Positions 29,230-38,562 of a stretch of 38,580 bases of DNA are shown here, in pieces. The notes under the pieces are model-generated. The model saw only the letters and a list, made by a program, of their open reading frames with translations. It ran no database searches and was not told the origin of the DNA. The position numbers and the translations under genes were made by a program. Source of the stretch: a virus; IMG/VR virus record IMGVR_UViG_3300024265_000129, positions 1 to 38,580 of that record, one strand, 5' to 3'. Each line of letters begins with the position of its first letter. Positions within the stretch are counted from its first letter, which is position 1.

Positions 29230-29280
29230 ATTATATTTATTCATTTCGTGCTTGTCAAGGAGTGTTTTATAGTTTATAAT
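29230..29280. promoter_or_regulatory. Divergent sigma70-type promoters sharing the -35 region
   Basis: Plus strand: TTGTCA (29252-29257), 17 bases, TATAAT (29275-29280). Minus strand: TTGACA (29253-29258), 17 bases, TATAAT (29230-29235). The two -35 boxes occupy the same bases, so one polymerase at a time can bind. A minus-strand AATAAATA (29234-29241) overlaps the minus -10 box and could add late expression. Confidence 0.85.
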
Positions 29281-29311
29281 CACATTTTACATCTTATTGT
29301 CGGGGAAGATA

Positions 29312-29689
29312 ATGATGGAATATGAAAACGACGCATTGTATGCTACTATTAAATTATCTAGAAAACTGCAACCTGTTGCCGAGGCTAATGACTGGAGCAT
29401 ATCTGATGTGCTATCTAAGGCAATAGAGGAGTTGGGTGAATTTTCGGAGGCAGTACAGATTGAACGAGGTAAAATGAAAAACAAGATGAAAAAGCTAGAT
29501 GCCCCGTTCTATGAGGCTGCTGATGTAATGCAATGTATTCTGGACACCCTTTCTAGATTACATCCCAATAAGTCTCCGGCGCAGATATGTACTCTATTAT
29601 ACCATGCTCTACGTAGTAAAGACAAGAAATGGGAAAATGTCGTACTTGCGGAGGCGACAGTGCTTGTGACGCAAGATCATGCCCTTTAA
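29312..29689 (+). CDS. MazG-like nucleotide pyrophosphohydrolase
   Basis: The protein has 125 aa from ATG 29312 (29315 is also possible), behind GGGGAAG; the upstream TTG start is not needed. The all-alpha NTP pyrophosphatase metal motif is present: E39-E40-x-x-E43 (IEELGEFSEA) and E68-x-x-D71 (EAADVMQCI). MazG-type enzymes hydrolyse NTPs, dNTPs or alarmones and are common in marine T4-like phages, where they may tune host metabolism. It follows the perfect sigma70 promoter at 29252 and overlaps peptide deformylase by 11 bases, so both are probably early. Confidence 0.75.
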   Translation: MMEYENDALYATIKLSRKLQPVAEANDWSISDVLSKAIEELGEFSEAVQIERGKMKNKMKKLDAPFYEAADVMQCILDTLSRLHPNKSPAQICTLLYHALRSKDKKWENVVLAEATVLVTQDHAL

Positions 29690-30197
29690 AATTCTCAAGC
29701 TTGGTAGTGAGGAACTCACAGCACCAAACCTTATAGTGAAAGACCACTGGTTTAAAACCGACCAGCTTAAGCTATTTGCTAATGAGATGTTGGCGTGTAT
29801 GGCATTATCTGATGGGATTGGGCTTGCCGCCCCACAGGTCGGCAAGAACATACGGCTGTTTGTAATGAACAATTCTCCAGAAGTTTTGGTGTGCATCAAT
29901 CCTGTTATAATTGAGACTTCCGAGTTTAGCAGTGTTTCTTTGGAGGGCTGTTTATCCTTCCCCGGTTTGTACCTTGATATCATACGTCCAATAACTGTGA
30001 AGGTTGCTTATTTTGATGTGGAAGGAGACTTGGTTGAGAGGGATTTGGATGGTATATTGGCTAGATGTTTTCAACATGAACTTGATCATTTGAACGGAAT
30101 TCTCTTTACTTCTCACGTAAAAAAGATTAAACTAGATCAAGCGAGAAGGAAAGCAAAGATAACGGAAAGAAAGAAGATAAGACGAAAACGAAGGTAA
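29679..30197 (+). CDS. def: Peptide deformylase
   Basis: The protein has 172 aa. All three metal-site motifs are intact: GIGLAAPQVG (46-55), EGCLSFPG with C91, and QHELDHLNG with H133, E134 and H137. The enzyme removes the formyl group from new proteins in the cytoplasm using Fe(II) or another metal. Phage versions usually lack the C-terminal extension; this one instead has a basic tail (RRKAKITERKKIRRKRR). It is translated with the MazG-like gene and is followed by a tRNA gene two bases after its stop, forming a small translation-related unit. Confidence 0.94.
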   Translation: MPFKILKLGSEELTAPNLIVKDHWFKTDQLKLFANEMLACMALSDGIGLAAPQVGKNIRLFVMNNSPEVLVCINPVIIETSEFSSVSLEGCLSFPGLYLDIIRPITVKVAYFDVEGDLVERDLDGILARCFQHELDHLNGILFTSHVKKIKLDQARRKAKITERKKIRRKRR

Positions 30198-30198
30198 T

Positions 30199-30275
30199 GG
30201 CTAGGTAGCTCAGTCTGGCAGAGCGGGGGTCTCTAAAACCCTGAGTCGAGGGTTCGAACCCCTCCCTAGCCGCCA
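30199..30275 (+). tRNA. tRNA with CTA anticodon (amber-decoding)
   Basis: A full cloverleaf: acceptor GGCTAGG with CCTAGCC, D stem GCTC with GAGC, anticodon stem GGGGT with ACCCT, loop CTCTAAA giving anticodon CTA at 30233-30235, T arm GAGGG/TTCGAAC/CCCTC, discriminator G and encoded CCA. It would read the UAG stop codon. The anticodon arm is close to bacterial tRNA-Trp (loop CTCCAAA), differing at the middle base, like the E. coli su7 suppressor. G73 and U35 would also favour glutaminyl-tRNA synthetase. It sits directly behind peptide deformylase, apart from the main tRNA cluster. Confidence 0.9.
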
Positions 30276-30336
30276 AATATTTGAAACATTACTTCCTGAG
30301 TAGACTTTTTAAAAAAGATGTGCTATCATGTTCCTC

Positions 30337-30693
30337 ATGAATAACACAGACACCAAGCGTACCCCAGTAAACAGCTCTAGTATGTGGGAAATCCTTGTGC
30401 CTACGGCAAACAATGAGGGCAAGCCATTTCGTACTAGATACCACAGGGTATGGGATGTAAAAGTTCGTAGGCTTTCCCATGGGTTAACTATACTTAGTCC
30501 TGTTAGAGGGCAGTTTGTGGCCCCGGATGGGGAATTATTTACAGAACGTATGATTCCTGTAAGGATCATGTGTCCGAGAGAAGATATAAATAAGATTATT
30601 GACTTTACTATGAGATATTATGATCAGGATGCAGTTTTGGCCTACATGATATCCTCAGATTGCATTTTAAAATATCGGGAGACAAGGCAATAA
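30337..30693 (+). CDS. Hypothetical protein, probably from a leaderless transcript
   Basis: The protein has 118 aa from ATG 30337 (MNNTDTKRTPVNSSSMWEIL). An ATG at 30328 lies within the -10 box TATCAT (30324-30329) and is not used if that promoter is real. The -35 candidate TAGACT is weak. From this promoter the transcript would begin at or next to the ATG. The middle is beta-rich (FRTRYHRVWDVKVRRLSHGL) and the C terminus is helical. No family recognised; it lies between the amber tRNA and a phosphoesterase. Confidence 0.7.
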   Translation: MNNTDTKRTPVNSSSMWEILVPTANNEGKPFRTRYHRVWDVKVRRLSHGLTILSPVRGQFVAPDGELFTERMIPVRIMCPREDINKIIDFTMRYYDQDAVLAYMISSDCILKYRETRQ

Positions 30694-30739: not shown

Positions 30740-31297
30740 ATGAATACATTTTTTACAGGCGACCAACACTTTGGTCATAAAAACATTTGCAGGTTTGTAA
30801 ATCGCCCTTTCGCTTCCATTGAGGAAATGAATGAGGCACTTATCAAGAATCATAATGACACGGTTAACCCCGGTGATGTAGTTTGGTTTTTGGGTGATTT
30901 TGGCTTTATGAGTCAAACTGGTATCAGAGCCATTCTAAGACGATTGAATGGTCAGAAGAATCTTATCTTGGGAAATCATGATAAGCCTTTTATGAAACGC
31001 GGAAGGGAATTTATAGGCAAAGGATTGCTTAATGCCATTTTTCATTATAGAGAAATCAATATTGAAAAACAGCATATAGTTCTTCTTCACTACGGTATGA
31101 GGGTGTGGAACAGGGCACATCACAGTTCATGGCATCTATACGGTCATTCTCATGGGTCACTCCCCCCATATCATAAATCACTTGATGTAGGAGTAGACTC
31201 TAAGGAGATAACCCCTGAATACAGACCTTATGCCTTTGAAGAGGTAAAGAGGTTTATGCAATCGAGAACGGCAGAATCGGTAGATCACCACAACTAA
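30740..31297 (+). CDS. Calcineurin-like metallophosphoesterase
   Basis: The protein has 185 aa. The five motifs are visible: GD8xH10, GD53 (WFLGDF), GN79H80D, H117 (LLHYGM) and GH136SH138G. The small size and single domain match phage and bacterial stand-alone phosphoesterases that act on phosphoesters of nucleotides or nucleic acids. The ATG has a good ribosome site (AGGAG, 30730-30734). It is distinct from the gp47 nuclease in this window. Its substrate cannot be inferred. Confidence 0.88.
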   Translation: MNTFFTGDQHFGHKNICRFVNRPFASIEEMNEALIKNHNDTVNPGDVVWFLGDFGFMSQTGIRAILRRLNGQKNLILGNHDKPFMKRGREFIGKGLLNAIFHYREINIEKQHIVLLHYGMRVWNRAHHSSWHLYGHSHGSLPPYHKSLDVGVDSKEITPEYRPYAFEEVKRFMQSRTAESVDHHN

Positions 31298-32116: not shown

Positions 32117-32884
32117 ATGAAAACTGTTAATACTTGGTGGTCAAAAGGCCCGTCGCCCGGTAATTTTGGGGATATACTAACTCCATTGTTAGTAGAACAC
32201 TTTAGTGATCATGTTTGTGTGTTCGTCAATATGCCATTTACGTCCCCAACCTTATTTGGGACGGGGAGCATCCTTTCTCGTGCTGAAAACAATACTATTA
32301 TCTGGGGTAGTGGGATGATGCGTGCCAGTGATCAGGTAAAGCGTGATGCCATATATCTATGTGTTCGTGGACCCAGAACGTATGAAATCCTTCAACAAAG
32401 ACATGTTAAGTGTCCACCAATATTTGGTGACCCGGCATTACTTATGCCAAAGGTATATAACAGGACAGATCTTCCTAAGAGATTTGAATATGGGGTGTTT
32501 GCTCATTATGTTGATACCGAAACTGTTTCGAAATGGTATAGATACGATCAAACTGTCAAGATAATAAACCCATTGAATGCCAACCCGTTGCAGGTAATAG
32601 CTCAAACACTACAATGTGAAAGAATTATTAGCAGTTCATTGCATGGGGTGATTATAGCCCACGCTTATGGTATCCCGGCTATCTGGGTCAAGCATTCAGA
32701 TAAATTGAACGGGGACGGTATTAAGTTTCACGATCATTTTGAGTCTGTGAAACTAGTAGCTGAATGTATTGATTTTCAAGAACGTATTCCCGTAGAGGAT
32801 TTGGGAAAATTTAATTATCAGGCTGGTATCAGTATTGATACTACTAAAATATCAAGAGCACTACAGAGCTATTTGAATGAGTAA
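32117..32884 (+). CDS. Polysaccharide pyruvyl transferase family protein
   Basis: The protein has 255 aa. The family pattern is clear: GNFGD (15-19) near the N terminus, a GSG (IIWGSGM), VRGPRT (84-89), FGDPALLMP, and SSSLHGVIIAHAYGIPAIWV. Such enzymes add ketal pyruvate to sugars of capsules or lipopolysaccharides, using phosphoenolpyruvate. It overlaps the following glycosyltransferase-like gene by eight bases, so both are made together. In a phage this pair could remodel the host surface or decorate virion glycans. Confidence 0.85.
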   Translation: MKTVNTWWSKGPSPGNFGDILTPLLVEHFSDHVCVFVNMPFTSPTLFGTGSILSRAENNTIIWGSGMMRASDQVKRDAIYLCVRGPRTYEILQQRHVKCPPIFGDPALLMPKVYNRTDLPKRFEYGVFAHYVDTETVSKWYRYDQTVKIINPLNANPLQVIAQTLQCERIISSSLHGVIIAHAYGIPAIWVKHSDKLNGDGIKFHDHFESVKLVAECIDFQERIPVEDLGKFNYQAGISIDTTKISRALQSYLNE

Positions 32885-33506
32885 TCCGTACCCAACAATA
32901 ATTAGTTTTTACACACGGGCGTGGCTATATCCAAATTATGCTATTAAGATGCGGGTTGCATGTAAAGTTTTGGGGCTGGAGCATCATATTGTATCTAGAG
33001 AAGATGCCGGGGGGTGGGTGGCGAACACCAGAATGAAGCCACAGTTTATCTATGAGGCCATACAGGAGTTACAGCGGCCAGTGTTGTGGATTGACGTGGA
33101 TGGTACTATATTACATATTCCAGAACTTCTCAGAGAAGGTTATCCTTTTGATTTTGCTGCAAGAAAGATGGGTAAGCATAGGGATAGAACGTGGCAAGTA
33201 GGTACGCTGTATTTCAATTATACCCCGGAATCCTTGGCGTTTTTGAAAGAATGGAATAGAAAGATAGTCGATGATACTTGGTCAGATGAATTATCTTTGG
33301 ATGAATTGTGGTTGGAACAGGGTGAAGAGATAAGAAATTTGAGAGTTGGTGAACTCCCCAAGGAATATTTTCAGATGTTACGGGGTGATAATTCGACACC
33401 ATCTCCTAGTTCCGTTATATGTCATCGGGCATCTAAGGGTGATGATAAGATGCGGGTTATGAAAGGGATACGGGCTAAAAGGGCTGATCTTGGAACAGGC
33501 ACATGA
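32877..33506 (+). CDS. Glycosyltransferase-like protein (GT-A fold)
   Basis: The protein has 209 aa. The segment RPVLWIDVDGTILHIPELL has the D73-x-D75 metal/nucleotide-sugar motif at the end of a beta strand. The next part (FDFAARKMGKHRDRTWQVGT, then LYFNYTPESLAFLKEW) matches nucleotide-diphospho-sugar transferases of the GT-A fold. It follows the pyruvyl transferase with an overlap. Donor and acceptor are unknown. It ends in a short basic tail. Confidence 0.75.
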   Translation: MSNPYPTIISFYTRAWLYPNYAIKMRVACKVLGLEHHIVSREDAGGWVANTRMKPQFIYEAIQELQRPVLWIDVDGTILHIPELLREGYPFDFAARKMGKHRDRTWQVGTLYFNYTPESLAFLKEWNRKIVDDTWSDELSLDELWLEQGEEIRNLRVGELPKEYFQMLRGDNSTPSPSSVICHRASKGDDKMRVMKGIRAKRADLGTGT

Positions 33507-34315: not shown

Positions 34316-34393
34316 GGAACTCTGGCAGAGGTGGTCCTATTGCGCCTGTTTGAAGAACAGGATATCTCCGTTCGATTCGGGGGGGTTCTACCA
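34316..34393 (+). tRNA. tRNA-Phe (GAA)
   Basis: Acceptor GGAACTC with GGGTTCT (two G.T pairs), anticodon stem CCTGT with ACAGG, loop TTGAAGA with anticodon GAA, T arm CTCCG/TTCGATT/CGGGG, discriminator A and encoded CCA. Confidence 0.85.
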
Positions 34394-34399
34394 AATCAC

Positions 34400-34434
34400 T
34401 TGCATAAAGTATCACTTTCCGATACTATATGCAA
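34400..34434 (+). ncRNA. Long hairpin after tRNA-Phe
   Basis: TTGCATA pairs with TATGCAA and, after one A.A mismatch, AGTATC pairs with GATACT, around a seven-base loop. Possibly a processing signal or stable end. Confidence 0.5.
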
Positions 34435-34446
34435 CCAATTACTGCG

Positions 34447-34525
34447 GTGCTGTGACCGCCTCACTGTCTGTTATTATGATGGTGAGTGACCACCAAGACT
34501 CGGTGGCCTGATAAATGCACAGCAC
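34447..34525 (+). ncRNA. tRNA-sized structured element, not a recognisable tRNA
   Basis: An eight-pair closing stem (GTGCTGTG with CACAGCAC) encloses two hairpins (CTCAC...GTGAG and CCACC...GGTGG). The length is 79 bases. No T loop consensus or anticodon loop can be seen. Confidence 0.4.
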
Positions 34526-34531
34526 GAATTT

Positions 34532-34645
34532 AGACATGTGGCTGAGTGGATAAGTGCTAGTGGGTCTGGTAATCTAAGGGTCTTACAAACTAATAACTTA
34601 GATTGGCTGCTAGATTAGAACAGCGGTTCGAATCCGTTCATGTCT
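34532..34645 (+). tRNA. tRNA-like gene with an inserted hairpin in the anticodon region
   Basis: The acceptor AGACATG pairs perfectly with CATGTCT. The D region GCTGAGTGGATAAG is Ser-like, and the T arm AGCGG/TTCGAAT/CCGTT is normal. The middle is too long: a stem CTAGTGG/CTGCTAG (34557-34563 with 34607-34613) holds a 34-base insert, the perfect eight-pair hairpin AATCTAAG...CTTAGATT (34571-34604). No standard seven-base anticodon loop can be formed and no CCA is encoded. It is either interrupted, has an unusual variable arm, or is a pseudo-tRNA. Confidence 0.45.
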
Positions 34646-34660
34646 TCTAACAAACACAAT

Positions 34661-34747
34661 GCCCCTGTGGTGGAATTGGTATACACGCTAGTTTTAGAAA
34701 CTAGTGGCCGAAAGGTCGTGGAGGTTCGATGCCTCTCAGGGGTACCA
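34661..34747 (+). tRNA. tRNA-Leu (TAG)
   Basis: Class II tRNA: acceptor GCCCCTG with CAGGGGT, anticodon stem CTAGT with ACTAG, loop TTTAGAA giving TAG, a long variable arm, T arm with GGTTCGATGCC and encoded CCA. Apart from the anticodon arm it is almost identical to the tRNA-Leu at 35349. Confidence 0.92.
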
Positions 34748-34750
34748 AAT

Positions 34751-34835
34751 TAGTAGGTTCGAAAACGCCTTCCGGCACCAACCCAAGTGGTGTAAGGGGT
34801 ACATACGACACGATTAGTACTTTCCGGCACTACTA
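34751..34835 (+). ncRNA. Structured spacer between tRNA-Leu and tRNA-Glu
   Basis: TAGTAG pairs with CTACTA at the ends of 85 bases, with an inner hairpin CACCA...TGGTG and the short repeat TTCCGGCAC present twice. No coding potential and no tRNA fold is seen. Confidence 0.3.
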
Positions 34836-34853
34836 CATTTTTAAAGTAACAAT

Positions 34854-34930
34854 GCGCTATTCCTCTAGTGGCCCAAGAGTCTGGACTTTCAATTCAGGGA
34901 ACGTCGGTTCGAATCCGACATAGCGTACCA
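34854..34930 (+). tRNA. tRNA-Glu (TTC)
   Basis: Acceptor GCGCTAT with ATAGCGT, D stem CTCT with AGAG, anticodon stem CTGGA with TTCAG, loop CTTTCAA giving TTC, T arm GTCGG/TTCGAAT/CCGAC, encoded CCA. Confidence 0.92.
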
Positions 34931-34939
34931 AAAAGCAAT

Positions 34940-35026
34940 GCCGCTGTGGTGGAATTGGTATACACGCATGTTTCAAACGCATGTGCTCGAAAGGGCATGG
35001 AGGTTCAAGTCCTCTCGGCGGTACCA
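34940..35026 (+). tRNA. tRNA-Leu (CAA)
   Basis: Class II tRNA: acceptor GCCGCTG with CGGCGGT, anticodon stem CATGT with GCATG, loop TTCAAAC giving CAA, long variable arm, T loop TTCAAGT, encoded CCA. Confidence 0.9.
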
Positions 35027-35041
35027 CTTTATAGATTATTG

Positions 35042-35050
35042 TGATATAAT
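35042..35050 (+). promoter_or_regulatory. Extended -10 promoter
   Basis: TGATATAAT, a TGN-extended -10 box without a clear -35, sits 31 bases before the ATG of the small Cys-rich ORF. Confidence 0.4.
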
Positions 35051-35080
35051 ATCAGCTTTACATGTATATAAGAGGCACTC

Positions 35081-35344
35081 ATGGCAGAGTTATATTCTGA
35101 TACTCCGGTAAAAAGAGTTGTAATACCGTGGCGCACGCGGGCTATAGGGTGGTTTACTGGATTGCCGCACAGCTATCCACATTCTTCAAGAGAGTGGATT
35201 AGTTCCTCATTAGATGAGGCGAAAGAGTTGATTGCTACATTTTCTCTAGCAATGCATTCGCCCTTTTATACAATGCCATGTAGTACCACGTGTAAGATAT
35301 GTAATATGTGCCCAGCCTTATATCGTAAAGCTGCAAGCGAATAA
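35081..35344 (+). CDS. Small cysteine-rich protein within the tRNA cluster
   Basis: The protein has 87 aa, with AGAGGC six bases before the ATG and a TAA four bases ahead of the next tRNA gene. It lies precisely between tRNA-Leu (CAA) and tRNA-Leu (TAA). The C terminus holds four closely spaced cysteines (PCSTTCKICNMCPALY) that could bind zinc or a Fe-S cluster. The middle (SREWISSSLDEAKELIATFS) is helical. No family recognised. Confidence 0.7.
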   Translation: MAELYSDTPVKRVVIPWRTRAIGWFTGLPHSYPHSSREWISSSLDEAKELIATFSLAMHSPFYTMPCSTTCKICNMCPALYRKAASE

Positions 35345-35348
35345 CAAT

Positions 35349-35435
35349 GCCCCTGTGGTGGAACTGGTATACACGCTGGACTTAAAACTCAGTGGCCGAA
35401 AGGTCGTGGAGGTTCGATGCCTCTCAGGGGTACCA
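35349..35435 (+). tRNA. tRNA-Leu (TAA)
   Basis: Class II tRNA with the same body as the tRNA-Leu at 34661. Its loop CTTAAAA gives TAA. The anticodon stem CTGGA/CTCAG has an A.C mismatch next to the loop. Encoded CCA. Confidence 0.88.
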
Positions 35436-35501
35436 AATGTATCATATATGATACATTAGACGGTTTAATGCTCTATATATAGCACATTTGATAGAAATTA
35501 T

Positions 35502-35586
35502 GCATGAGTTGGACAGCGTGGTGGGTCCATCAGACTGTAAATCTGAAGCTTCGGCCTTGTAGGTTCGATTCCTACCTCATGCACCA
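35502..35586 (+). tRNA. tRNA-Tyr (GTA), class II
   Basis: Acceptor GCATGAG with CTCATGC, anticodon stem TCAGA with TCTGA, loop CTGTAAA giving GTA, long variable arm (AGCTTCGGCCTT) as normal for bacterial tRNA-Tyr, T arm GTAGG/TTCGATT/CCTAC, encoded CCA. Confidence 0.9.
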
Positions 35587-35658
35587 AACGTTGGGTAATA
35601 TGAAAAGGAACCATCCACTCCCTCCGGGGACTGGTTGGCCCTTGAATTATTATCAAGT

Positions 35659-35769
35659 CACAAGATGAGAAGTAATACTATCATCTAAGGCCAAGACCTT
35701 GCCTTTGCAGCGGGGAATGTGGGTTTCAAATTCCCACTAGTATTATGGGTAGGCCACCCTAGTCTTGTG
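35659..35769 (+). ncRNA. Nested structure around a tRNA-like core
   Basis: CACAAGA pairs with TCTTGTG at the ends of 111 bases that enclose the tRNA-like gene at 35674-35745 and a hairpin GGGT...ACCC. Upstream, 35641-35657 forms CTTGA...TCAAG. This may be a processing helix. Confidence 0.35.
35674..35745 (+). tRNA. Irregular tRNA-like gene, possible tRNA-Gln (TTG)
   Basis: Acceptor AATACTA pairs with TAGTATT. The anticodon stem CTTGC with GCGGG and loop CTTTGCA would give TTG. However the T stem GTGGG/CCCAC leaves a nine-base loop, position 37 is C, and no CCA follows. It is either a degenerate tRNA or a structured RNA resembling one. tRNA-Gln (CTG) at 36606 is a normal gene. Confidence 0.45.
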
Positions 35770-35783
35770 GCGGATCTAATTTT

Positions 35784-35859
35784 GGGGCGGAAGCTAAAGT
35801 GGATAAGCGTTAGTCTGTAAAACTAACTATAGTTGGTTCGAGTCCAACCCACCTCACCA
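35784..35859 (+). tRNA. tRNA with GTA anticodon and short variable arm
   Basis: Acceptor GGGGCGG with CCACCTC (one C.A mismatch), D stem GCT with AGC, anticodon stem TTAGT with ACTAA, loop CTGTAAA giving GTA, five-base variable region, T arm GTTGG/TTCGAGT/CCAAC, encoded CCA. The anticodon means Tyr, but bacterial tRNA-Tyr has a long variable arm, as the gene at 35502 does. Confidence 0.7.
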
Positions 35860-35862
35860 ATT

Positions 35863-36011
35863 TGATAGTGTACTAACACGTAAAGGTGTGTAAGAAAACA
35901 GCCAAGAGTGGCCTAAGACGAGTGCATACTACCTTGTAATGATGGGTATGCAACGTGAACTACGCATGACATAAGCAAAAGGTTCCTAAGTGTAAATCTT
36001 GTCAGCTATCA
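35863..36011 (+). ncRNA. Hairpin-rich spacer in the tRNA cluster
   Basis: TGATAG pairs with CTATCA at the ends. Inside are hairpins ACAC...GTGT, GCCA-AGAG-TGGC and GCATAC...GTATGC. No tRNA fold or coding region is seen. The rest of the gap to the next tRNA holds the late box at 36053. Confidence 0.3.
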
Positions 36012-36052
36012 TTTTTATTTTAAAATATACTGTGGTAAATTGTGGAAGAGTG

Positions 36053-36060
36053 CATAAATA
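36053..36060 (+). promoter_or_regulatory. Late-type promoter box CATAAATA inside the tRNA cluster
   Basis: CATAAATA within the palindrome TGCATAAATATGCA, 85 bases ahead of tRNA-Pro (TGG). It could give late expression of the distal tRNAs. Confidence 0.4.
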
Positions 36061-36144
36061 TGCATTATAGGGCAACCAATCCTATCTGTAGGGTATTTCC
36101 ATTCCTATATATGAAAGGGAAAAACGTACAGAAGTATATTTTAT

Positions 36145-36222
36145 CGGGGATTAGCTCAGTCTGGTCAGAGCACTGCGTTTGGGGCGCAGGGGCCGAAGGT
36201 TCAAATCCTTCATTCCCGACCA
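36145..36222 (+). tRNA. tRNA-Pro (TGG)
   Basis: Acceptor CGGGGAT with ATTCCCG, anticodon stem CTGCG with CGCAG, loop TTTGGGG giving TGG, T arm GAAGG/TTCAAAT/CCTTC, encoded CCA. Confidence 0.92.
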
Positions 36223-36232
36223 ATAAAAGAGT

Positions 36233-36307
36233 TTGCAGGTAGCCGTGGAGAGTTAGTCGTCACCACTATGATGTCAAGACTAGGCATAATAGCATACGGC
36301 CCTGCAA
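36233..36307 (+). ncRNA. tRNA-sized long hairpin between the two tRNA-Pro genes
   Basis: TTGCAGG pairs with CCTGCAA and, after a two-base bulge, GCCGT pairs with ACGGC, giving 12 pairs. The 75-base length is that of a tRNA, but there is no T loop or anticodon arm. Confidence 0.45.
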
Positions 36308-36320
36308 TTGAATTATCTCT

Positions 36321-36355
36321 ACGCAGTTTAGTCTGGTAGAGCACTTGTTTCGGGG
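36321..36355 (+). pseudogene. 5' half of a tRNA-Pro-like gene
   Basis: GTTTAGTCTGGTAGAGCAC is a normal D arm. It is followed by TTGTTTCGGGG, the 5' side of an anticodon arm with CGG, and then merges directly into the acceptor of the next tRNA-Pro. It is a truncated tRNA whose 3' half is missing. Confidence 0.65.
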
Positions 36356-36428
36356 ATTAGCTCAGTCTGGTCAGAGCACTGCGTTCGGGGCGCAGGGGCC
36401 GAAAGTTCGAATCTTTCATTCCCGACCA
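36351..36428 (+). tRNA. tRNA-Pro (CGG)
   Basis: Near-copy of tRNA-Pro (TGG) with loop TTCGGGG giving CGG. The T stem has changed on both sides (GAAAG with CTTTC instead of GAAGG with CCTTC), keeping the pairing. Encoded CCA. Confidence 0.92.
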
Positions 36429-36435
36429 ATTAGTG

Positions 36436-36604
36436 TTGTAATGTGGCTTTCATCGCAGAGACTGAAAGTCATTGGAAGTGATATTAATTCATGTTAACCT
36501 ATTCTCTGGGGGGCATGATAGGAGCGGGTCTATGCCCAATGGGAATAAAATAGGCCGGTACTGGGGTCATGCCCGGTACACTTCCCACAATATTAATTTT
36601 ACAA
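36436..36604 (+). ncRNA. Hairpin-rich spacer before tRNA-Gln
   Basis: TTGTAATGTGG pairs in two steps with CCACA and TTACAA at the ends of 169 bases. Inside are CTTTCA...TGAAAG, GGGCAT...ATGCCC and the perfect eight-pair GTACTGGG...CCCGGTAC (one T.G). No ORF or tRNA is seen. Confidence 0.35.
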
Positions 36605-36605
36605 T

Positions 36606-36680
36606 TGGCCTATAGTATAATTGGCAGTGCATGAGCCTCTGACGCTCTCGGTCTAGGTTCGAATCCTAGTGGGCCAGCCA
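36606..36680 (+). tRNA. tRNA-Gln (CTG)
   Basis: Acceptor TGGCCTA with TGGGCCA, anticodon loop CTCTGAC giving CTG, T arm CTAGG/TTCGAAT/CCTAG, discriminator G and encoded CCA. U1-A72 and G73 are the usual glutamine identity elements. Confidence 0.9.
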
Positions 36681-36682
36681 AG

Positions 36683-36895
36683 TTTCACCAAGGATATGGC
36701 GGTGCCAAACGTAGGCACTGTATAAGATGATGACGGTTCGAGTACGTAACATGGCAACCATCACCATAACCGTTTGTAAGCGCACATGAAGGTGAATTTG
36801 AACTGTGGTGTTCTGTGGACAGGCTGATACCGGCACAGTGTAAAGGGAAACATGGTGGAGATAACCCAAGACACCCCCACACCATAATTAATAAT
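36683..36895 (+). other. Non-coding spacer with several hairpins
   Basis: Contains GTGCC...GGCAC, ACGGTT...AACCGT, ACTGTG...CACAGT and ATGGTG...CACCAT. No convincing ORF or tRNA on either strand. A lone GGTTCGAGT resembles a T loop but lacks a stem. Confidence 0.35.
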
Positions 36896-36973
36896 GCACC
36901 CGTAGCTCAGTCTGGACAGAGCGTTCGCCTACGAAGCGAAGGGCCGAGGGTTCAAATCCTTCCGGGTGTGCCA
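36896..36973 (+). tRNA. tRNA-Arg (ACG)
   Basis: Acceptor GCACCCG with CGGGTGT, anticodon stem TTCGC with GCGAA, loop CTACGAA giving ACG, T arm GAGGG/TTCAAAT/CCTTC, discriminator G, encoded CCA. Confidence 0.92.
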
Positions 36974-37011
36974 AAGTTGTGGTAAATAGTATAAACGTCG
37001 GAGAAAATATT

Positions 37012-37266
37012 ATGGATTTATATCAAAAAGCATTAAATGCTAAAAGATATAAACGTGAAGAAGAAAGATTGAAAAAACGAACAACAAAATCTATTGAAGA
37101 AGAATTAGAAGTTGTTAAACGTAAGGATGATGAATTAAAAGAACGTATAGGAACGCGGAGTAAAGAGATAAACTCATCTCTATTGAATGAACGTTTTAGA
37201 ACACTAGTTAGAGCATATCGTTTAATGAGTCATTTACAGAAACGACCTAAAGTATATCTAGTTTAA
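37012..37266 (+). CDS. Small lysine/glutamate-rich hypothetical protein between tRNA-Arg genes
   Basis: The protein has 84 aa from ATG 37012, with GGAG nine bases upstream; the longer frame from the tRNA side is not needed. It is almost wholly helical and charged (KRYKREEERLKKRTTKSIEE, VVKRKDDELKERIGTR), a likely coiled coil with basic C terminus. It uses more A-rich codons than its neighbours. Like the 35081 ORF it sits exactly between two tRNAs. No family recognised. Confidence 0.7.
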   Translation: MDLYQKALNAKRYKREEERLKKRTTKSIEEELEVVKRKDDELKERIGTRSKEINSSLLNERFRTLVRAYRLMSHLQKRPKVYLV

Positions 37267-37269
37267 AAT

Positions 37270-37346
37270 GCCCCGGTAGCTCAGTAGGACAGAGCAGCTT
37301 CCTTCTAAGGAGACCGTCGAGGGTTCGAATCCTTCTCGGGGTGCCA
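37270..37346 (+). tRNA. tRNA-Arg (TCT)
   Basis: Acceptor GCCCCGG with TCGGGGT, D stem GCTC with GAGC, loop CTTCTAA giving TCT, T arm GAGGG/TTCGAAT/CCTTC, discriminator G, encoded CCA. The first pair of the anticodon stem is a G.A mismatch. Confidence 0.9.
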
Positions 37347-37413: not shown

Positions 37414-38562
37414 TTGATATTACGAGCATATAAATTTCCTTGTTATCCTGATGAAAGGCAGAAAGCGCAGCTAGAGATTGAGTTTGCCGCAGCCCGTGCT
37501 ATATTCAATTGGGGTTTAGCTACTCGTAAAGGTGAATATGAAAAGGATAAGACACGTGTTAGTAGGGTAGATTGTAATAAGCGTTTGACTCAATTAAAAA
37601 AACATCCAGATGAATATTGGCCAGAACATATGGGTGGCACGGAATGGTTAAAAAATGCCAGTGTTACTGTATTACAATATTCGTTAATTAATCTTGATAC
37701 AGCTTATAAGAATTTTTTTGAAGGTACTGCAAAGTATCCACAATTTAAAGTAAAGGGTAAAGCGCGAAATTCAGTAACTTACCCAATTTCTGCTTGTGTA
37801 TATTTACATGAGGAAGAAAAGTTATGGTTAACAAACCAATATTATAGAAAAATGTCTTCGTTGAAAATTAAACGAGACCGTAAATTACCAACGGAACCAA
37901 TAAAGGTAACAGTTAGTAAAGACAGGGTTGGTAATTATTTTATAAGTTTTCTTGTTAAGGAAGATATCGATCCATTACCGAAGACTGGAAAGGTGGTTGG
38001 GGTTGATGTTGGGATCACGGATGTTGTCATTACTGATGATGGTTATAAGAGTGGTAACCCGAAAAGTACTGCAAAATATGCAAAGAAGTTAAAAAAATTA
38101 CAAAGGCAAAAACGCTTAAAGGAAAAGGGAAGTAATAATCAGGAGAAACTTAGGATAAAGATTGCAAAGGTTCATAAGAAAATTGCTGACACTCGTTTAA
38201 CATTTTTACATAGGGAAAGCAAAAGGTTAGTAGATGAAGCAGATATTATTTCTGTTGAATCGTTGAATGTTCAGGGGATGATGAAAAACCGTAAGTTATC
38301 AAAAGCAATTGCCGATGCTTCGATGTCTGAATTTCACCGGCAGTTAGAATATAAATCACAATTTTATGGAAGAAATTTTGTTAGTATTGATAAATGGTTT
38401 CCTAGCACAAAAACATGCAGTAGTTGTCATCATGTTGTTGATAGTATACCATTATCAGATAGAAGTTGGGAATGCCCTGAATGTGGTGTCAAACATGACA
38501 GGGATATTAATGCAGCCATTAATATTAAAGAAGAGGGTCTCAGGATTTTAAATAATGCTTAA
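37414..38562 (+). CDS. tnpB: TnpB, RNA-guided nuclease of IS200/IS605-type elements
   Basis: The protein has 382 aa. The TTG start gives MILRAYKFPCYPDE, the usual TnpB opening, with AAGG upstream. The RuvC-like catalytic residues are all present: D198 (VGVDVGITD), E282 (ISVESLNVQG) and D364 (HDRDINAAIN), spaced as in ISDra2 TnpB. A zinc ribbon is formed by C335/C338 (TCSSC) and C354/C357 (CPEC). TnpB uses an RNA from the element's 3' end (omega RNA) to cut matching DNA next to a short motif. No TnpA transposase is in the window. The guide region would lie past the stop, where only 18 bases remain. The neighbouring tRNA cluster is a usual landing place for such elements. Confidence 0.93.
   Translation: MILRAYKFPCYPDERQKAQLEIEFAAARAIFNWGLATRKGEYEKDKTRVSRVDCNKRLTQLKKHPDEYWPEHMGGTEWLKNASVTVLQYSLINLDTAYKNFFEGTAKYPQFKVKGKARNSVTYPISACVYLHEEEKLWLTNQYYRKMSSLKIKRDRKLPTEPIKVTVSKDRVGNYFISFLVKEDIDPLPKTGKVVGVDVGITDVVITDDGYKSGNPKSTAKYAKKLKKLQRQKRLKEKGSNNQEKLRIKIAKVHKKIADTRLTFLHRESKRLVDEADIISVESLNVQGMMKNRKLSKAIADASMSEFHRQLEYKSQFYGRNFVSIDKWFPSTKTCSSCHHVVDSIPLSDRSWECPECGVKHDRDINAAINIKEEGLRILNNA

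Follow-up and report, generated by a model that had tools for sequence, protein, structure and literature searches.

Two tRNAs with a CUA anticodon have been reported in Xanthomonas phage XacN1, whose authors read 18 amber stops through in silico and found no target (PMC5852040). Sinorhizobium phage AP-J-162 and Erwinia jumbo phages each carry a CUA tRNA as well (PMC11242549, PMC7760394). Among the Zeta crAss-like phages, Lera, ct1yV3 and ctE7s22 have an unused tRNA-Sup(CTA) for which an anti-host-defence action was proposed (PMC12386605), and both a pre-emergence and an anti-defence role of suppressor tRNAs were discussed by Yutin et al. (PMC7886860). For stop-reading tRNAs in standard-code phages, the literature offers two proposals, a code change in the making and an action against the host. 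A CUA suppressor tRNA without recoding or a found target is already known from cultured XacN1. What is new here is that a further locus, found in the window (the whole 38,580-nucleotide stretch of viral DNA that was analysed), is linked to the XacN1 group, and that the tRNA shows long conservation with compensated stems, a conserved neighbourhood in six lineages, and a fixed decoding end against a drifting acceptor end.

Portal and prohead protease searches placed the window within the XacN1/PA5oct group of T4-like jumbo phages, whose members Xanthomonas phage XacN1, Stenotrophomonas phage CM1 and Pseudomonas phage PA5oct have genomes of 287-385 kb. The gp21 prohead protease is 54% identical to that of XacN1, the closest cultured relative by this protein, 49% to that of CM1 and 47% to that of PA5oct; the gp20 portal gene adjoins gp21 in XacN1 and PA5oct, and the window qualifies as a member of the group. 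The window is a fragment, as are the related sequences G001 (a longer contig of 56.8 kb from the same species), G004 and G010; XacN1 and CM1 are complete.

The window resembles XacN1 in its standard code and in the CUCUAAA loop of the tRNA. It differs in that the XacN1 CUA tRNAs sit in the terminal-repeat tRNA array, whereas that of the window lies by a phosphoesterase gene, and in that XacN1 has two such tRNAs with differing acceptor stems and an anticodon stem mismatched at both ends. The two are adjacent and present in both terminal repeats of XacN1 (36047-36205 and 354842-355000). The Zeta crAss-like phages likewise keep an amber suppressor without amber recoding in diverged relatives and have rare TAG, but their phage order is not related, TGA is recoded in Lera and ct1yV3 (PMC12386605), and their TAG stops are closely trailed by another stop, a feature that is inconsistent in the window group. 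Sinorhizobium phages AP-J-162 and Phosso are, like the source of the window, jumbo phages with a CUA tRNA, annotated as tRNA-Pyl(CTA) (PMC11242549; PV764938). The Phosso CUA tRNA is 86% identical to ours over 57 bases; its neighbours are annotated as hypothetical, with no phosphoesterase or def named, and its 27-43 pair is Watson-Crick. Code-15 phages, in which TAG encodes glutamine, are large phages with a CUA suppressor too (PMC7886860, PMC13037316), but they have TAG within many genes and the window has none.

A sequence-only reading of this DNA had proposed a canonical tRNA with anticodon CTA, and both ARAGORN and Rfam returned it at identical coordinates (Table 1), with the highest Rfam score among the 13 tRNA matches in the window. 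Inspection by eye gave a fully paired acceptor stem (GGCTAGG/CCTAGCC), a D stem GCTC/GAGC, an anticodon arm GGGGT-CTCTAAA-ACCCT with G27.U43 at the top of its stem, and a T arm GAGGG-TTCGAAC-CCCTC with a perfect stem, followed by G73 and an encoded CCA. With its complete cloverleaf and CUA at positions 34-36, the gene is classed by sequence as an amber suppressor tRNA. The proposed one-base distance of the anticodon arm from tRNA-Trp is borne out in the loop (CUCUAAA vs CUCCAAA) but fails in the stem. The ARAGORN label for the gene is tRNA-Pyl. Typical tRNA-Pyl has a 6-bp anticodon stem, a 3-nt variable loop, a D loop without GG and a single base between the acceptor and D stems. The tRNA of the window has a 5-bp anticodon stem, a 5-nt variable loop, GG in the D loop and two bases between the acceptor and D stems, and tRNA-Pyl identity was discarded. 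A plasmid origin was also rejected, as matches reached only 75-81%.

Table 1. Features around the CUA tRNA of the window and the evidence for each
Feature	Position	Strand	Evidence
Candidate sigma-70-type promoter, TTGTCA-17-TATAAT	29252..29280	+	Consensus scan, 11/12 positions
Conserved ORF, MazG-like by eye	29297..29689	+	50-61% identity in lineages with the tRNA
Peptide deformylase gene (def)	29679..30197	+	Pfam PF01327, E 2e-41
Amber suppressor-type tRNA, anticodon CUA	30199..30275	+	ARAGORN (CTA call); Rfam RF00005, 65.4 bits
Conserved ORF, function not assigned	30328..30693	+	Directly 3' of the tRNA; 72% identical in G002/G003
Phosphoesterase-like gene	30740..31297	+	Near the CUA tRNA in six lineages
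Array of ordinary tRNA genes	34316..37346	+	ARAGORN, Rfam; last is tRNA-Arg(UCU), 37270-37346

The stop codon of def lies one base upstream of the tRNA. The MazG-like ORF, which matched no Pfam family, is the first gene of a unit leading into def and then the tRNA, and the candidate promoter, identified by consensus match alone, is directed into this unit; the sigma-70 consensus scan found 13 promoter-like sites in the region versus 5.0 in shuffles. The def gene is also found upstream of the CUA tRNA in G004 and G010 and is gone in G002/G003, where the tRNA is retained. No Pfam match at 0.001 was obtained for the phosphoesterase-like gene; the gene in the corresponding XacN1 position carries the annotation 'phosphoesterase'.

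The CUA tRNA is separated from the ordinary tRNA array by 4 kb. ARAGORN called a second CTA anticodon for the last gene of that array, but the Rfam alignment centres its loop, CUUCUAA, on UCU and identifies it as tRNA-Arg, a miscall that calls for caution with automatic counts of suppressor tRNAs. A further Rfam tRNA match in the array (34532-34646, 36.8 bits), missed by ARAGORN, has an insert of ~49 bases in the anticodon arm and is either intron-bearing or decayed. Between 34750 and 36900, long inter-tRNA spacers contain tRNA-like fragments, for example at 36320-36350 before tRNA-Pro, which may be remnants of tRNA genes or else small RNAs of another kind. A TnpB/IS605 OrfB-type gene (37414-38562; PF07282, PF01385) is immediately 3' of the array, and at 32117-33506 lie genes for a polysaccharide pyruvyl transferase (PF04230) and, next in line, a product that matches a nucleotide-sugar transferase below threshold.

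Ten of the lineages examined carry CUA tRNAs (window/G001, G002/G003, G004-G006, G010, G017, G018, G019, G022, XacN1 and CM1), and 11 sequences were compared, since XacN1 carries two. The tRNA lies near the same phosphoesterase gene in six of the ten lineages and is retained down to ~50-60% prohead protease identity. In G008 the entire gene block including the tRNA is missing; the PA5oct genome record has no CUA tRNA, and none was called in G014, G015, G016, G020 and G023, some of which are incomplete. CM1 has, besides its CUA tRNA, an ARAGORN-predicted tRNA with anticodon TTA (176611-176685), which would read UAA. Pairwise identity of the CUA tRNAs between lineages is mostly 66-82%. Across the 11 sequences, standard pairs occupy 77/77 acceptor and 55/55 T-stem positions with many two-sided changes, and each of the seven acceptor positions shows two to four pair types, all of them standard. 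C34-U35-A36-A37 is invariant in all 11, A38 is present in all except G004, and A39 is nearly conserved. Acceptor stems rewritten with their pairs kept, around a fixed C34-U35-A36-A37, argue that selection maintains UAG decoding, and by this comparison of sequences the UAG-reading anticodon is maintained across the ten lineages. The earlier reading of a genuine UAG-reading tRNA is supported, and the tRNA is selectively maintained in standard-code phages.

Watson-Crick pairing at 27-43, the outermost pair of the anticodon stem, is absent from 9 of the 10 lineages, which have G.U or a mismatch there, compared with 78/333 other tRNAs of the same phages (nominal P ~2e-5, for related lineages and a post hoc comparison). 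C31 stands opposite A39 or C39 in five lineages. In Escherichia coli, an opened 27-43 pair raises UAG readthrough, and with a CUA anticodon even UAA is read (PMC13092985). We treat the opening of this pair in CUA tRNAs as a lead.

Charging by GlnRS, which had been suggested on the grounds of U35 and G73, is not supported as a general rule. The features of tRNA-Gln-like charging by GlnRS are U35, G73 and a weak 1-72 pair. The tRNA of the window has the first two, but its 1-72 pair is G1-C72, and this pair is G-C in 8/11 CUA tRNAs. Base 73 is G in the window, G002/G003, G022 and one XacN1 tRNA, A in G004, G010, G017, G018, CM1 and the other XacN1 tRNA, and U in G019. The tRNA-Gln genes of the same phages are unlike the CUA tRNAs; given this and the variation in base 73 and acceptor stem, the inserted amino acid is probably not the same in every lineage. 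Even the two CUA tRNAs of XacN1, which share a body but differ in acceptor stem and in base 73 (A in one, G in the other), probably receive different amino acids.

Of 37 plausible genes in the window, 29 have a TAA stop and 8 a TGA stop, and TAG terminates none of them, a recount that matches the earlier tally of about 27, 9 and none among roughly 36. The view that the segment avoids TAG holds to the extent that 0/37 genes end in it; the signal is weaker than this suggests, as the chance of this outcome at the 7.7% TAG-stop rate seen in comparable phages with no CUA tRNA detected is ~0.05, and one conserved gene among the 43 genes of G001 ends in TAG. The triplet itself is not scarce, with 495 occurrences on the + strand and 377 off-frame occurrences inside genes. 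Genes were called with a simple custom codon-usage script, which gave 6 amber stops for XacN1 versus the 18 of its authors.

In the relatives, TAG ends 1/40 conserved genes in G001, 2/27 in G002, 4/75 in G004, 5/79 in G010, 0/44 in G017, 2/18 in G018, 3/74 in G019, 22/145 in G022, 0/235 in XacN1 and 2/190 in CM1, so that its share in CUA-bearing relatives ranges from 0 (G017 and XacN1) to 15% (G022). Phages without a detected CUA tRNA have 50/647 TAG stops in sum, with 6/96 in PA5oct. XacN1 and CM1 together contrast with PA5oct and G020 (2/425 vs 14/215, P 1e-5). Comparison of all phages with and without the tRNA gave a pooled P of 0.008 and a per-genome rank test P of 0.26, which is not significant; with G022 a clear exception, TAG depletion was dropped as a general correlate of the tRNA. 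TAG occurs at largely ordinary frequency in G004, G010, G019 and above all G022, and is depleted in XacN1 and CM1; active suppression in some lineages would fit this depletion, which does not hold generally. Backup stops immediately after TAG were inconsistent (G004 4/12, G010 2/14, G022 3/55) and were set aside as a sign of suppression, being suggestive in G004 alone (4/12 vs 7/109) and absent as such a sign from G010, G019, G022 and XacN1. The 76.8-kb contig G017 strongly avoids TGA (55 TAA, 1 TAG, 0 TGA stops); TGA recoding was rejected there, as in-frame TGA is absent too.

The proposed reassignment of UAG was not borne out, since TAG continues to terminate conserved genes in most relatives that have the tRNA. 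Reading TAG as sense brought no gene-model improvement in the window, G001, G004, G010 or G019, no conserved window gene acquires an internal TAG, and no in-frame TAG flanked on both sides by homology to one protein was found in the CUA lineages examined. TAG-interrupted frames in G010, G019 and G022 proved to be neighbouring genes sharing a frame rather than readthrough sites, and one such junction spans TATAAATA, a T4-type late promoter motif. UAG recoding is refuted for the sequence at hand, which follows the standard code, and the sequence evidence gives good support to a standard-code phage with a functional amber suppressor tRNA.

The explanation that we favor, at about an even chance, is a jumbo-phage suppressor under the standard code that is made early, charged by a host synthetase, and beneficial mainly through readthrough of host UAG codons. 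The tRNA would be transcribed early within the gene unit containing def and then processed; once charged by a host synthetase, it would compete with RF1 at UAG. The likeliest benefit would be readthrough of UAG-ended host messages, for example with less output of host or defence proteins, and the phage's own exposure may be limited by its few TAG stops or by tolerance of short extensions. Host messages are the likeliest target because no phage gene was seen to need the tRNA. Disturbance of host termination, already named as a target in the sequence-only reading, is reasonable and would be the most likely purpose. The rarity of TAG in the complete CUA-bearing genomes XacN1 and CM1, as against PA5oct without the tRNA, speaks for suppression; G022, where 15% of conserved genes stop at TAG despite the tRNA, speaks against it.

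A role of the tRNA in extending particular phage proteins, by readthrough at one or a few specific UAG codons, is unlikely, although a target could lie outside the available fragments (the window, G001, G004 and G010 are incomplete) and although G022 has four consecutive same-frame TAG-ended genes directly upstream of its CUA tRNA (139714-140931). In XacN1 and CM1 the homologues of those four genes are distinct genes with TAA or TGA stops, TAG-ended genes are not the same between lineages, and no TAG splits one homologous protein in the CUA lineages examined; in the complete XacN1, the authors' search of 18 amber stops was without success (PMC5852040). Two further explanations are less probable still, and equally so. 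One is a role in RNA biology without decoding of host messages, such as that of a decoy or substitute in a tRNA-targeted defence: it would suit the unconserved identity elements (acceptor stem and base 73), whereby the inserted amino acid may not matter, but conservation falls on the bases that decode, C34-U35-A36-A37 and, almost as strictly, A38 and A39, and a decoy for a sense tRNA would retain the anticodon of that tRNA. The other is a code change, just beginning or surviving as a relic, or else a suppressor captured by chance and carried neutrally. Suppressor tRNAs in non-recoded genomes have been termed pre-emergence (Yutin et al. 2021, PMC7886860), but retention in ten lineages with pairwise changes in the stems has lasted too long, under too much constraint, for a passenger and argues against a brief incipient stage, and in-frame TAG has not begun to accumulate in any lineage tested. 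Reassignment of UAG to an amino acid (code 15) or pyrrolysine, in phage or host, can be dismissed as very improbable: the CUA anticodon, the lack of TAG stops in the window and the tRNA-Pyl label would fit it, but conserved window genes have gained no internal TAG, TAG closes conserved genes in most relatives, and the peculiarities of tRNA-Pyl are all missing.

With readthrough of host messages thus preferred, we tentatively suggest, with rather more doubt, that the group keeps a suppressor with an anticodon arm shaped to outcompete RF1 (A36-A37-A38 and an open 27-43 pair) and with a freely drifting acceptor end. If so, the phage would need UAG readthrough itself, whatever amino acid is inserted, and readthrough would be directed at termination or defence genes of the host as a weapon, not as a change of code. 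The link to the cultured phages XacN1 and CM1 makes the purpose of a stop-reading tRNA experimentally accessible.
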